Of a stretch of DNA of 64,000 nt, positions 13,571 through 19,357 are shown piece after piece. The notes under the pieces are model-generated. The model saw only the letters and a list, made by a program, of their open reading frames with translations. It searched no databases and was not told the DNA's origin. Both the position numbers and the translations under genes were made by a program. This stretch comes from Immundisolibacterales bacterium (GTDB lineage Bacteria; Pseudomonadota; Gammaproteobacteria; HK1): positions 1 through 64,000 of the forward strand of contig JAPOPW010000012.1 of the NCBI GenBank assembly GCA_026712715.1, in the 5' to 3' direction. Every line of letters starts with the position of its first letter. The first letter of the stretch is position 1.

Positions 13571-13638
13571 ATTGCGCCGGCGCGGTCAATGATTTCCAAT
13601 ATGGAGTAGTGTTTTCCCCCTTGATTCCAACTGACCGC

Positions 13639-14610
13639 ATGAGCAACCGCGCCCTTCTCAGACTCGGGGCCGACGTCATTCGAACGGAGATCGACGCGCT
13701 TCGCGGGCTGCTGCCCCGGATCGACGACGAATTCGCGCGCGCCTGCACGATCATTCTCGAGCGGCCCGGGCGAGTGATCGTGACGGGCATGGGCAAGTCG
13801 GGGCACGTGGGCCACAAGGTTGCGTCGACCCTGGCGAGCGCGGGAACGCCCTCGTTCTTCGTTCACCCCGGAGAGGCGAGCCACGGTGACCTCGGCATGA
13901 TCACGCGCGAGGACACCGTCATGGCGTTCTCGAATTCCGGGGAAACCGCCGAGATCCTGACCATCGTTCCCCTTATCAAGCGGATCGGGGTGCCCCTTCT
14001 CGCGCTCACCGGAAATCCCTCCTCGCGCCTGGCGAGCGAGGCGGACGTGAACATCGACGTGAGCGTCGCGAAGGAGGCCTGCCCGCTCGGACTCGCTCCC
14101 ACCGCGAGCACCACCGCGGCGCTCGCCATGGGCGACGCGATCGCGATCGCGCTCCTCGAGGCCCGGGACTTCGGGGCCGAGGACTTCGCCCGCTCGCATC
14201 CGGGCGGTCATCTCGGCCGGCGGCTGCTGCTCCGGGTGAAGGACCTCATGCACACCGGCCGCCGCATGCCGACGGTCGGTCCGGACACGCTGACGAGCGA
14301 CGCGCTGCTGGAGATGACGGCCAAGAGCCTGGGGATGACTTCGGTCGTGGACGGTGACGGCCTGCTCCTCGGGGTATTCACGGATGGGGATCTTCGCCGG
14401 GCGCTCGACGATGGAATCGCGCTTCGCGACACTCCGATTCGGCAGGTGATGACCCCGAGCGGAGTGACCGTGTCGCCGGATACCCTCGCGGCGGAGTGTC
14501 TCAACATTCTGGAGCAACGCAAGATCACCGCGCTGGTGGTCGTCGACGAATCGTACCGGCAAATCGGGGTCCTGCATCTGCACGATCTCCTGCGGGCCGG
14601 GGTAATTTAA
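13639..14610 (+). CDS. kdsD: Arabinose-5-phosphate isomerase (KdsD/KpsF family)
   Basis: Converts D-ribulose 5-phosphate to D-arabinose 5-phosphate, the first step of Kdo synthesis for LPS. An SIS domain (VTGMGKSGHVGHKVASTLAS, HPGEASHGDLGMI, FSNSGETAEI) is followed by two CBS domains in the C-terminal third (VKDLMHTGRRMP ... IRQVMTPSGVTV). ATG 13639 (MSNRALL) is preferred over the GTG at 13609 in the ORF track; both lack a strong SD. 323 residues is the usual length. It heads the LPS-export operon, but kdsC, which normally follows, is replaced by an unrelated gene. Confidence 0.94.
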   Translation: MSNRALLRLGADVIRTEIDALRGLLPRIDDEFARACTIILERPGRVIVTGMGKSGHVGHKVASTLASAGTPSFFVHPGEASHGDLGMITREDTVMAFSNSGETAEILTIVPLIKRIGVPLLALTGNPSSRLASEADVNIDVSVAKEACPLGLAPTASTTAALAMGDAIAIALLEARDFGAEDFARSHPGGHLGRRLLLRVKDLMHTGRRMPTVGPDTLTSDALLEMTAKSLGMTSVVDGDGLLLGVFTDGDLRRALDDGIALRDTPIRQVMTPSGVTVSPDTLAAECLNILEQRKITALVVVDESYRQIGVLHLHDLLRAGVI

Positions 14611-14675
14611 ACTCGATCGAAGCTGAATCGACACGGGCGGCCCGTGCGCCGTACCGGGTACGCACGGAGAATCAC

Positions 14676-15734
14676 ATGGCCGACATCATGATCATGGGCG
14701 CCTCCTACGGCGCGCTGCTCGGAATCAAGCTCTGCGCCGCGGGTCACTCGACGACCCTCGTGTGCCTGCCCGATGAAGCGGACCTCATCAACCGGGAGGG
14801 CCAGCGGGTGCGAATGCCCGTGAAGGGACGGGACGAGCTGGTGGAGGTCGATTCGCGGAGATTGCCGGGCCGTCTTTCCGCGGCCACCACCGGGGCGATC
14901 GACCCTTCGGACTTCGATCTGGTCGGCCTCGCCATGCAAGAGCCCCAGTACGGCGCAACGGGGGTTCGCGAGCTCCTGGGCGCGGTGGCGCGAAGCGGCG
15001 TCCCGTGCATGTCCATCATGAACATGCCCCCGCTCCCCTATCTGAAACGGATTCCCGGACTCGACGTCGAGCCCCTGCGGTCCTGTTATACCGACCCCTC
15101 CGTGTGGGATGCGTTCGACCCCGCGCGAATGACCCTCTGCAGCCCGGACGCCCAGGCGTTTCGGCCCCCCGAAGAGAAGACCAACGTGCTGCAGGTCAGC
15201 CTCCCGACCAACTTTCGGGCCGCGCGATTCGAATCGGAAGGCGGCACCTCCCTGCTGCGCGCCCTGCAGGCGGACATCGAGGCGATCCGATACGACGACG
15301 GCACCGGGCCGGTCGAACTGCCGGTCAAGCTCAAGGTGCACGATTCGGTATTCGTGCCGCTGGCGAAGTGGAGCATGCTGCTCGCAGGGAACTATCGCTG
15401 CGTGCAGGAGAAGGACATGCGCGCAATCCGGGACGCGGTCCACGGGGACCTCGAGCTCGCGCGCTCCGTCTACGATTGGGTGAACTCGGTCTGCCGCGCG
15501 ATCGGGGCTTCCGAGGGAGACCAGATCCCCTTCGAGAAGTATGCGAACGCGGCACGGGGCCTCACCAAGCCGTCGTCCGCCGCCCGCGCCCTGCTCGCCG
15601 GCGCCCCCCGAATCGAGCGCGCCGACCACCTGGTGCAGTCGATTGCCTCGCAAAGGGGCATGCGCTCCGAGGTCGTGGACGAGAGCGTGCAGCTCGTCGA
15701 CGGTTGGTTGTCCGCCAATCGCCGGGAAGGCTGA
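14676..15734 (+). CDS. Ketopantoate reductase-like (ApbA/PanE superfamily) protein
   Basis: 352 residues. The N-terminus (MADIMIMGASYGALLGIKLCAAGHSTTLVC) is a Rossmann nucleotide-binding fold with a GxSxG-type loop rather than the standard GxGxxG. The C-terminal part is helical (PVKLKVHDSVFVPLAKWSML), resembling PanE/ApbA C-terminal domains where a Lys acts in catalysis. Substrate is unknown. It lies 65 bp after kdsD and 3 bp before lptC, the slot of kdsC (Kdo-8-phosphate phosphatase) in other gammaproteobacteria, but shows no HAD motifs and cannot be KdsC. Pantothenate synthesis is possible but not supported by neighbours. Confidence 0.75.
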   Translation: MADIMIMGASYGALLGIKLCAAGHSTTLVCLPDEADLINREGQRVRMPVKGRDELVEVDSRRLPGRLSAATTGAIDPSDFDLVGLAMQEPQYGATGVRELLGAVARSGVPCMSIMNMPPLPYLKRIPGLDVEPLRSCYTDPSVWDAFDPARMTLCSPDAQAFRPPEEKTNVLQVSLPTNFRAARFESEGGTSLLRALQADIEAIRYDDGTGPVELPVKLKVHDSVFVPLAKWSMLLAGNYRCVQEKDMRAIRDAVHGDLELARSVYDWVNSVCRAIGASEGDQIPFEKYANAARGLTKPSSAARALLAGAPRIERADHLVQSIASQRGMRSEVVDESVQLVDGWLSANRREG

Positions 15735-15737
15735 CCT

Positions 15738-16346
15738 TTGCCGGACACGCCGGCGGAGTCGAGCGGGAACGCCGCTGCACCGGAGTCGCGTCCTCCGATC
15801 CGCGCAACGATCGTCGCGGCCCTCGTCGGGGCCGCGTGCGGGATCGCCTGGTACCTTCTTCCGCTTCCTCCCCCGACCCCCGCAGACTCCGCACGATTCC
15901 CCGGCTTGCTTTCGCATCTGCACATCGAAGACGTCGACGTGGCGACCACCGACTCTTCGGGACGCATGCATCGGCGGTTGCAGGCGAAGGAGCTGCGGCG
16001 CGACGTTCCCGGCGGCAAGTCCTTTCTCGTTCAACCCCGGCTGACGGTGTTCTCGGAAGGTGAAGCGCTCTGGCACTTCGCGTCCGAGCGCGGCGAGGTT
16101 TCTCCCGACGGCGAAAACATTTATCTTCCGGGACCGGTGCGGGGACGGCGCGGCCCGGTTCAGCCCATCGAGATCGAAAGCGCCGACGTCCGGATCATGG
16201 CCGCGGAGAGCTACGGCGAGTCCGACCAGCCCTCCACGATTCGGGGGAGGGCGTTCCAGGCGCGCGGCGACGGTCTGAAGATCTGGCTGGACGAAGGGAA
16301 GGTCGAGCTGGTGAACGACGCCCGCGGAACACTGCAGAAAAGGTAG
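15738..16346 (+). CDS. lptC: LPS export ABC transporter periplasmic protein LptC
   Basis: Bitopic inner-membrane protein that hands LPS from LptB2FG to LptA. One N-terminal transmembrane helix (IRATIVAALVGAACGIAWYLLPLP) is followed by a beta-jellyroll domain (LHIEDVDVATTDSSGRMHRR, LQAKELRRDVPGG, LPGPVRGRRG). 202 residues, as expected. The TTG start follows the preceding stop by 3 bp. The N-terminal cytoplasmic stretch is Pro/Ala-rich. Assignment rests on the fold and position before lptA and lptB. Confidence 0.9.
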   Translation: MPDTPAESSGNAAAPESRPPIRATIVAALVGAACGIAWYLLPLPPPTPADSARFPGLLSHLHIEDVDVATTDSSGRMHRRLQAKELRRDVPGGKSFLVQPRLTVFSEGEALWHFASERGEVSPDGENIYLPGPVRGRRGPVQPIEIESADVRIMAAESYGESDQPSTIRGRAFQARGDGLKIWLDEGKVELVNDARGTLQKR

Positions 16347-16355
16347 CCTGCCATC

Positions 16356-16856
16356 ATGCAACTGCGTCTCGTGCTGCTTCTCCTGTCCCTGTCCACGTTC
16401 GCGACCGGGGCCGCCGCGCTTACGACCGACCGGGTGAAACCGGTTCGAATCGATGCCGACTGGGCGCAGTTCGACGACCGCCAGCGGATCGCCACGTACA
16501 AGGGCAACGTGACCATCAACCAGGGGAGCCTGCGCGTCTCCGGCGAGCTGGTCGTGATGCACTTCGACGAGAGCTACGACCTCGCCGGGCTCGTCGCGGA
16601 AGGGAGCCCGGCCCGCTTCGAGCAGCGCCTCGACCGCGGGCCGCTGCAGCAGGGCCAGGCCGCGCGCATCGAGTATTCCGCGGCCGACGGGGCCATGCGC
16701 TTTGACGGCGACGCGCGGATTGCGCAGGGTCAGTTCGAAATGGAGGCGAGTCGCATCGACTACGATTCCCTCACCGGCAGCATCGAGGGCGTGGCCTCGG
16801 AATCCGAGGAAGGAAAGCAACGGGTCACAATCCTGCTCCAGGGCAAGCAGGAGTGA
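16356..16856 (+). CDS. lptA: LPS transport periplasmic protein LptA
   Basis: Periplasmic bridge protein that carries LPS between LptC and LptD. A signal peptide (MQLRLVLLLLSLSTFATGAAA) precedes an OstA-like jellyroll domain: IDADWAQFDDRQRIATYKGNVTINQGSLRVSGELV, QGQAARIEYSAADGAMRFDGDARIAQG. 166 residues. Its stop overlaps the GTG start of lptB, consistent with translational coupling. Confidence 0.94.
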   Translation: MQLRLVLLLLSLSTFATGAAALTTDRVKPVRIDADWAQFDDRQRIATYKGNVTINQGSLRVSGELVVMHFDESYDLAGLVAEGSPARFEQRLDRGPLQQGQAARIEYSAADGAMRFDGDARIAQGQFEMEASRIDYDSLTGSIEGVASESEEGKQRVTILLQGKQE

Positions 16857-17578
16857 CGTGCCTTTCCGCCGAAGGGCTCGCGAAGCGCTTCGGCTCCCGC
16901 ACGGTGGTCGACGACGTGAGTCTCGCGGTCAATAGCGGCGAGGTGGTGGGTTTTCTCGGCCCGAACGGTGCCGGCAAGTCCACGAGCTTCCACATGATCG
17001 TGGGACTCATCCCGGCCGACGGAGGTACCGTTCACCTCGACGGAGTCGATCTGACGAACCGTCCGATGCACGCGCGCGCGCGCCTCGGGCTGGGTTATCT
17101 CCCGCAGGAGCCTTCGGTCTTCCGCAAGCTTTCGGTGGAACAGAACCTCCTCGCGATTCTCGAGCTCAGCCGCGACCTCGATGCGGAGACGCGCGCCCTG
17201 TGGGCGGTACGGCTCATGCAGGCGTTCGGGGTCGAACACTTGCGCCGGGAGCGCGGTGAGAACCTCTCGGGCGGCGAACGGCGCCGGGTCGAGCTCGCCC
17301 GGGCGCTCGCCGCCAGGCCACGCTACATGCTGCTGGACGAACCCTTCGCCGGGGTGGATCCCATCACGATATCCGAGATTCACGGACTCATTCGCCAGTT
17401 GCGCGAACGCGGCATAGGCGTGCTCGTGACCGACCACAACGTGCGCGAGACGCTCGGGATCTGCGACCGCGGGTACATCGTCAACGAGGGCCGAATCATC
17501 TGCCACGGCCGGCCGGACACCATCGCGGACGATCCGATGGTGCGCGATGTCTATCTCGGGCAGGACTTCGTCCTCTGA
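16853..17578 (+). CDS. lptB: LPS export ABC transporter ATP-binding protein LptB
   Basis: ATPase powering LPS extraction by LptB2FG. 241 residues with Walker A GPNGAGKST (about 37-45), Q-loop LPQEPSVFRKLSVEQN, signature LSGGERRRVELARAL (about 138), Walker B MLLDEPFAGVDP (about 159) and switch His in VTDHNVRETL. The C-terminal CHGRPDTIADDPMVRDVYLGQDF matches LptB. lptF and lptG are not in the window. A 72-bp gap separates it from rpoN. Confidence 0.97.
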   Translation: MTCLSAEGLAKRFGSRTVVDDVSLAVNSGEVVGFLGPNGAGKSTSFHMIVGLIPADGGTVHLDGVDLTNRPMHARARLGLGYLPQEPSVFRKLSVEQNLLAILELSRDLDAETRALWAVRLMQAFGVEHLRRERGENLSGGERRRVELARALAARPRYMLLDEPFAGVDPITISEIHGLIRQLRERGIGVLVTDHNVRETLGICDRGYIVNEGRIICHGRPDTIADDPMVRDVYLGQDFVL

Positions 17579-17650: not shown

Positions 17651-18997
17651 ATGAAGCAGACCCTGGAGCTCAGGCTCGGACAGCATCTCGCGATGACCCC
17701 GCAGATGCGCCAGGCGATTCGCTTCCTGCAGCTTTCCTCCATCGAGTTGCGGGCCGAGCTGCGGGAGATCGCCGAATCGAACTTCATGCTCGAGCTCGAG
17801 GACGAGCCGCCGTACGACGAATGGGGCGCAGATCCGGGCCCGGAACGCGGGGGGAGGGCGATGGAAGACCTCCCCGAGCCCGAGGCGTCGCTGCGCGATC
17901 GGCTTTTCTGGCAGCTCGACAATGCACGTCTTTCCGAACGGGAACACGTCATCGGCGCCGTTGTCGTGGATTCCATCGACGCGCGCGGGTACCTCGACGC
18001 CTCGGTGGATGAGCTGGTCGAGACGCTGGAAGACCTGGGTCTCGGGGCAGGACCGGAGGAGGTCGAGGCGATCCTGCGCCGCGTGCAACGATTCGAGCCC
18101 ACCGGGGTCGGCGCTCGAACGCTCTCGGAGTGCCTGCAGCGGCAGCTCGAGGAGCTTGCCACGGACACCCCGTACCGCGAGCCGGCCCTGGTGGTCGCCC
18201 GATTCCATCTCGAAATGGTGGCCCGGCACGATCTCGTCGGATTGAGGCGAGAGCTCGGGACGTCCCGCGAGGAGCTGGACGGGGCGCTCGCCCTGTTGCG
18301 GAGATTGAACCCGCGCCCGGGCGCAGGCTACGCGGGAGCGCCGACCGAGTACATCACCCCGGATCTCAGGGTGCTCAGGGAGGGGACGAAGTGGAAGGTC
18401 GAGCTGAACCCGGGAACAATTCCGAGGTTGCGAATCAACCCGTTGTATGCAGGGTTCGTCCGCCGCGGAAGCCATGGGACCGAGAATCAGTCCCTCAAGC
18501 GGCACCTTGCCGAAGCGAGATCGCTCCTGAAGAGCCTCGGGAACCGAACCGAGACGATGCTCCGCGTGGCGAGGGCGATCGTTCGGCGCCAGCGGGAGTT
18601 TCTCGAGCGCGGGGACGAGGGAATGCGGCCGCTGGTGCTTCGCGAGATCGCATCCGAGCTCGGTCTGCACGAGTCGACCGTGTCCCGGGTCACCAGCGGC
18701 AAGCACGTCCAGACTCCCCGCGGGGTGTTCGAGCTCAAGCACTTCTTCTCCAACCAGATTTCTTCCCCGAACGGAGGAGCGGCGTCTGCTGTGGCGGTCC
18801 GGGCGCACCTTCGGAGGATCATCGAGGGCGAGGAGCCGGGGCGGCCCTGGAGCGACCAGCGCCTCGCGTCGAATCTCGAGCAAGCCGGCTTCCCGGTCGC
18901 CCGCAGGACCGTCGCCAAGTACCGGGAATCGATGGGAATCCCCACCTCGAACGAACGGCGCCGTGCGGGTGCCGCCAACCTGAACGCCAGCGCGTGA
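17651..18997 (+). CDS. rpoN: RNA polymerase sigma-54 factor RpoN
   Basis: Sigma-54, which needs an enhancer-binding ATPase to open promoters. 448 residues. The N-terminal region I (LELRLGQHLAMTPQMRQAIRFLQLSSIEL) is Gln/Leu-rich and interacts with activators. The acidic region II is short. The core-binding domain includes VQRFEPTGVGARTLSECLQRQL. The HTH (SELGLHESTVSRVTSGKHVQTPRGVFELKHFFS) and the RpoN box ARRTVAKYRE (about 417-426), which recognises the -24 element, are intact. It sits in the usual lptB-rpoN-hpf order. Confidence 0.97.
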   Translation: MKQTLELRLGQHLAMTPQMRQAIRFLQLSSIELRAELREIAESNFMLELEDEPPYDEWGADPGPERGGRAMEDLPEPEASLRDRLFWQLDNARLSEREHVIGAVVVDSIDARGYLDASVDELVETLEDLGLGAGPEEVEAILRRVQRFEPTGVGARTLSECLQRQLEELATDTPYREPALVVARFHLEMVARHDLVGLRRELGTSREELDGALALLRRLNPRPGAGYAGAPTEYITPDLRVLREGTKWKVELNPGTIPRLRINPLYAGFVRRGSHGTENQSLKRHLAEARSLLKSLGNRTETMLRVARAIVRRQREFLERGDEGMRPLVLREIASELGLHESTVSRVTSGKHVQTPRGVFELKHFFSNQISSPNGGAASAVAVRAHLRRIIEGEEPGRPWSDQRLASNLEQAGFPVARRTVAKYRESMGIPTSNERRRAGAANLNASA

Positions 18998-19024: not shown

Positions 19025-19357
19025 ATGCATTTGAACATCACCGGTCGCCGCCTGGAGGTCACCGAAGCCCTCGAGTCGTACACGAGAACCAAGCTCCAGA
19101 GACTGGAACGTCACTTCGATCACGTCACCAACGTCCACGTCATATTGTCGGTTGAACGCGAGAGGCACCGGGCGGAGGCGACCGTGCATGTGACGGGACG
19201 GGAGCTATTTGCCGACTCGGTGGAAGGGGAGATGTACGCGGCCATCGACGCGCTCGCCGACAAGCTGGACCGGCAAATCAAGCGCTACAAGGAAAAGACG
19301 ACCGACCACCACCGCGCGTCGGGAGGTCTCAAGTCCAATCCCCCCTCCGGTCCGTAG
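19025..19357 (+). CDS. hpf: Ribosome hibernation promoting factor HPF (short form)
   Basis: 110-residue S30AE/YfiA-fold protein that binds the decoding centre and drives ribosome dimerisation in stationary phase. MHLNITGRRLEVTEALESYTRTKLQRLERHF and the basic HVTGRELFADSVEGEMYAAIDALADKLDRQIKRYKEK are diagnostic. The short form lacks the long C-terminal dimerisation extension. ATG has a gggagg SD. It follows rpoN by 27 bp; a strong hairpin follows. Confidence 0.95.
   Translation: MHLNITGRRLEVTEALESYTRTKLQRLERHFDHVTNVHVILSVERERHRAEATVHVTGRELFADSVEGEMYAAIDALADKLDRQIKRYKEKTTDHHRASGGLKSNPPSGP

Follow-up and report, generated by a model that had tools for sequence, protein, structure and literature searches.

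A ketopantoate-reductase-like gene of an unnamed family in the kdsC position of the lpt operon of one gammaproteobacterial genus

An oxidoreductase gene between kdsD and lptC

In several genera related to that of the Immundisolibacterales bacterium studied here, the gene for KdsC, the Kdo-8-phosphate phosphatase, is flanked by kdsD and lptC. In the 64,000-nucleotide stretch of DNA that we analysed (the window; contig JAPOPW010000012.1 of assembly GCA_026712715.1), the same place is held by a gene, hereafter X, whose product is unrelated to KdsC in fold and chemistry, which raises the question of how it came to be there and whether it has any part in LPS synthesis. Curated models named every neighbour of X and bore out the gene order kdsD-X-lptC-lptA-lptB-rpoN-hpf proposed in the initial annotation:

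13609..14610, forward strand: kdsD, arabinose-5-phosphate isomerase (SIS and two CBS domains); TIGR00393, 353.9 bits, over cut-off
14611..14675, forward strand: non-coding kdsD-X spacer, ending in the ribosome-binding-site-like string GCACGGAGAA (direct reading and comparison with congeners)
14676..15734, forward strand: gene X, oxidoreductase of the ketopantoate reductase (KPR) superfamily, 352 aa, with a GASYG loop at residues 8-12
15738..16346, forward strand: lptC, TTG start, 3 bp past the X stop; TIGR04409, 79.6 bits, over cut-off
16356..16856, forward strand: lptA; TIGR03002, 103.5 bits, over cut-off
16853..17578, forward strand: lptB; TIGR04406, 354.9 bits, over cut-off
17651..18997, forward strand: rpoN (sigma-54); TIGR02395, 409.3 bits, over cut-off
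19025..19357, forward strand: hpf, ribosome hibernation-promoting factor; TIGR00741, 103.2 bits, over cut-off

The order kdsD-X-lptC is the same in both other members of the genus examined. The 3-bp gap between the X stop and the lptC start, already remarked upon in the window, is identical in all three species, as is the presence of the Shine-Dalgarno-like string upstream of the X start, which lends support to this start. The X protein is 86.5% and 84.5% identical to those of the two congeners, its pN/pS against them is far below 1, and its dN/dS among the three species (0.10-0.16) indicates purifying selection; kdsD and lptB have similar values, those of lptC and lptA being far higher (0.33-0.60). 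Identity of 84-87% combined with such a low dN/dS implies that X is a maintained gene, older than the split of the three species. The kdsD-X spacers of the congeners measure 127 and 270 bp, and no kdsC remnant was recognised on reading the spacers of the three species. The lptC promoters of E. coli are located within kdsD (PMC5821084) and, by analogy, promoters inside kdsD would permit insertion in the gap without severing lptC expression. Directly downstream of lptB, the rpoN of one congener (G012; L006:10961-11369) carries an internal deletion with a frameshift, such that residues ~1-58 and 373-448 are left in different frames.

Fold, nucleotide loop, and family of X

X escapes the curated models: it scores 12.7 bits against Pfam ApbA (cut-off 22.2, E=0.1) and 11.8 bits against the best NCBIfam PanE-type models (cut-offs 371 and 223), its whole family falls below every Pfam and NCBIfam cut-off, and, searched as a single sequence, it matches PanE no better than noise. 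A profile built from 30 X relatives matched PDB 3hwr with an E of 7.9e-4, and profile-profile comparison with PanE gave an E of 3.8e-7 across the first 100 columns, corresponding to the N-terminal part; the C-terminal half had no significant match to the PanE profile (E about 0.1, MAFFT and hhalign tried). In a Foldseek search with the AlphaFold model of X (pLDDT 94.6, pTM 0.91), ketopantoate reductases and D-mandelate dehydrogenases made up almost all of the top matches, which extended along the whole chain (best E 2.4e-13, TM about 0.65). On this model, X is predicted to have the two-domain KPR fold, within the 6-phosphogluconate-dehydrogenase-like superfamily. Its first description as ketopantoate-reductase-like thus holds for the fold, whereas its direct sequence match, below the ApbA cut-off, supports it very weakly.

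Despite the full-length fold match and the N-terminal Rossmann homology that it shares with PanE/ApbA (PF02558 plus PF08546, TIGR00745), X differs from these enzymes in being ~50 residues longer, in scoring under their cut-offs, in a C-terminal half that is not significantly alignable, and in having GASYG where they have GxGxxG, with which it aligns with one residue missing. The D-mandelate dehydrogenases among its best fold matches (PDB 5x20, 3wfj, and 8wl1) are 2-hydroxy acid dehydrogenases with a KPR fold, but are only 13-14% identical to X. The non-canonical GASYG loop singled out in the initial annotation is real; being invariant in 30/30 aligned family members, it is a hallmark of the family and not a peculiarity of the window gene. 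This shortening might change or abolish NAD(P) binding. Mean column identity across the 30 members is 74%, and K231, S301, and E314 of X are invariant among them. The catalytic Lys and Glu of PanE are K176 and E256 in E. coli; since the C-terminal halves do not align significantly, the three invariant residues of X are candidate catalytic residues only. We found no biochemistry for any member of the family.

A scan of species genomes yielded at least 193 X relatives, of which 80 loci were kept, two from the congeners and 78 from outside the genus. They belong to Alphaproteobacteria, Betaproteobacteria, Chloroflexota (SAR202 among them) and, in small number, Gammaproteobacteria, besides isolated cases elsewhere. 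The family is compact, widespread, and strongly conserved, although unnamed and missed by current curated models. Afipia sp. 1NLS2 holds at least four copies in differing contexts (L056, L065, L072, and L083).

Loss of kdsC and origin of X

X occurs in 3/17 genomes of the order, all from the genus of the window species (g1), and in 3/369 sampled genomes of the class. In a quick tree, built from genome bins that may be mixed, the X sequences of g1 cluster with one from an alphaproteobacterium (Defluviicoccus; SH-aLRT 95), and lateral acquisition would be the simplest reading of this placement. KdsC, by contrast, is over its cut-off in 307 of the 369 genomes of the class. The proposed search for a kdsC elsewhere in the window genome returned nothing over the TIGR01670 cut-off (best score 14.6 bits against 106.95), and X itself has neither a TIGR01670 match nor HAD motifs. 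Within the order, six of the 17 genomes have a kdsC over cut-off, placed between kdsD and lptC in four of these six (genera g2, g4, and g5); the gene is absent in g1 and in the sister genera g3 and g8, in which kdsD is directly followed by lptC with nothing in the kdsC place. KdsB was found in 17/17 genomes, and the KdsD tree requires two changes of kdsC state.

KdsC is known to be dispensable in E. coli and missing from divergent bacteria, and nonspecific or other phosphatases have been proposed as its stand-ins (PMC5615194, PMC4086706); the window genome carries other HAD-family candidates. Given this dispensability and the existence of sister genera with neither kdsC nor X, the loss of kdsC and the insertion of X need no functional link. 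The suggestion that X is a displaced unrelated gene is supported by its restriction to one genus of the order, its branching with Alphaproteobacteria, and the sister genera devoid of both kdsC and any replacement.

Genomic neighbourhoods of X relatives

We followed up the suggested survey of homologue neighbourhoods and found X in an LPS operon at 0/78 loci outside the genus, so that action on an envelope sugar gains no support; the surroundings point to small-acid metabolism of glyoxylate/oxalate type. At least one gene of this type is present at ~20/80 genome loci (a rough count, for an estimated chance level of a few per cent). They include a BhcA-like glyoxylate aminotransferase (8 loci), a type II haloacid dehalogenase (6 loci plus L009), and malate synthase A (3 loci), and carboxylate transporters recur as neighbours as well. 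At L012, the closest outgroup of the g1 sequences, a D-2-hydroxyacid dehydrogenase gene immediately precedes X. The genes for formyl-CoA transferase (frc) or oxalyl-CoA decarboxylase (oxc) accompany X at 7/84 loci outside the genus, 4/80 in genomes and 3/4 on plasmids, and do not adjoin it in the window genome. L008 and L009 combine a true oxc with frc near X, frc adjoins or lies close to X at L080, L082, and on plasmid L111, and a Paracoccus plasmid (L112) has the arrangement oxc-frc-X. The La 6 plasmid (L113/L140) surrounds X with a near-complete oxalate-serine pathway: oxc, frc, formate-THF ligase, formate dehydrogenase, PEP carboxylase, serine hydroxymethyltransferase, and glycerate dehydrogenase, together with an annotated hydrogenase subunit that resembles BhcA-like aminotransferases. 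No KPR-like gene other than X was found in this cluster. The metabolite common to the recurrent neighbours is glyoxylate, a product or substrate of glycolate oxidase, of haloacid dehalogenase (acting on dihaloacetate), of BhcA and malate synthase, and of oxalyl-CoA reduction.

Possible functions of X

We consider it probable that X came in by lateral transfer and was captured at the kdsD-lptC junction, and that it is an NAD(P)-dependent reductase or dehydrogenase of small 2-oxo or 2-hydroxy acids and not an LPS enzyme, although the diversity of its neighbourhoods weighs against this explanation. kdsC would have been lost from one gammaproteobacterial genus, after which X, a catabolic-type enzyme presumably of lateral origin, would have entered the junction. 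X would use NAD(P) and most likely act on a substrate of the glyoxylate or oxalyl-CoA class; its probable co-transcription with lptC would be due to its landing site and not to any action on Kdo or LPS, and Kdo-8-phosphate would be dephosphorylated by another phosphatase.

That X might instead replace KdsC functionally, or modify Kdo or another envelope sugar, would explain its slot directly, as it separates kdsD from lptC in 3/3 species, is under purifying selection, and comes from the very genomes that lack kdsC. We nevertheless regard this as very improbable: its fold is that of an NAD(P)-type reductase and not of a phosphatase, X is in no LPS operon at the 78 loci outside the genus, and KdsC can be dispensed with in E. 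coli and is absent from divergent bacteria (PMC5615194, PMC4086706). Replacement of KdsC is rejected on this fold and on the g3 and g8 genomes, which do without either gene. Still harder to credit is a catalytically dead X carried as a passive passenger of the operon. The shortened loop and the lack of an adjoining pathway partner would fit such a passenger, but not a dN/dS as low as that of kdsD or lptB and far below those of lptC and lptA, nor a loop common to all 30 aligned members. The KPR fold and the arrangement panB-panE-X at four loci (L036, L037, L046, and L060) would suit a ketopantoate reductase that serves pantothenate or pantoate metabolism, but this is very unlikely too. These loci come from a single betaproteobacterial clade and each has its own canonical panE adjoining panB, the large majority of X loci have no panB, and in the window genome three canonical PanE-family genes score over cut-off, while no gene does so for PanB. 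The pantothenate-like substrate once envisaged for X is therefore not upheld, and pantothenate synthesis was discarded as its general role. The four betaproteobacterial loci consist of an ABC transporter, panB, panE, and X, in some cases with TRAP transporter genes after them, and possibly represent a pantoate-related catabolic cluster. The presence of PanE without PanB in the window genome may reflect a gap in the pantothenate pathway or a divergent PanB.

A narrower possibility, to which we give appreciable but clearly lesser weight, is that X is an oxalyl-CoA reductase (CoA-acylating glyoxylate dehydrogenase) that shares the function of the known ones without being their orthologue. PanE2 of Methylorubrum extorquens is a KPR-family enzyme that reduces oxalyl-CoA to glyoxylate, and ApbA2 of Cupriavidus necator, 51% identical to it, is encoded near frc-oxc (PMC8411744, PMC7486775). 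Like X, both belong to the KPR superfamily; X, for its part, has frc or oxc nearby in several lineages but not beside it in the window genome. The oxc-frc-X order in Paracoccus and the position of X as sole KPR-like gene in the La 6 plasmid cluster fit the same activity. The distribution within the order also agrees: ApbA2-type genes lie near frc in g2 and g4 (NF005089), another is present in g3 (a split TIGR00745 match), and none was seen in g1, which has both X and an frc over cut-off. Against it, this complementary pattern comes from one lineage only and many X loci lack frc and oxc. Moreover, the ApbA2-type genes near frc-oxc in Cupriavidus are, unlike X, canonical members of NF005089/TIGR00745 (510-531 bits on NF005089, versus about 12 for X), and those of two Cupriavidus plasmids have no BLAST similarity to X. 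Orthology of X with PanE2/ApbA2 is excluded on these grounds; X could still be their analogue.

The g1 formyl-CoA transferase (562.6 bits, over cut-off) is encoded at a distance from X, in a cluster of the window genome (L152; G000:C13, 7151-13207) that comprises a GntR regulator, a TPP lyase, the formyl-CoA transferase, a formyltransferase, and a formate-THF ligase. This cluster resembles the block oxc-frc-fmt-fhs on the La 6 plasmid, but its TPP lyase, 2-hydroxyacyl-CoA lyase/Oxc-like, falls short of a true Oxc (213 bits versus a cut-off of 739). We found nothing in the literature on a combined oxc/2-hydroxyacyl-CoA lyase cluster in Gammaproteobacteria.

Significance of the slot and of the family

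The occupancy of the slot is best explained by the loss of kdsC together with the capture of a metabolic gene that arrived by lateral transfer. Read in this way, the kdsC slot can empty and refill without functional replacement, which calls for caution with guilt-by-association annotation even in conserved operons. The interest of the locus lies in an oddly placed gene and an uncharacterised enzyme family, and not in a new step of LPS synthesis; the neighbourhoods of this unnamed but conserved oxidoreductase family suggest a substrate class that can be tested. Tentatively, the GASYG proteins may be oxalyl-CoA/glyoxylate oxidoreductases of a second family, not orthologous to the known one, or else uncharacterised reductases of another small 2-oxoacid with a shortened loop; the family would have spread laterally through Proteobacteria and Chloroflexota (SAR202) and been captured by the essential lpt operon in g1. 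A divergent relative with 36% identity, encoded on a Sulfitobacter plasmid (L114:7980-9077), is surrounded by glycosyl-, acetyl-, and O-acyltransferase genes.
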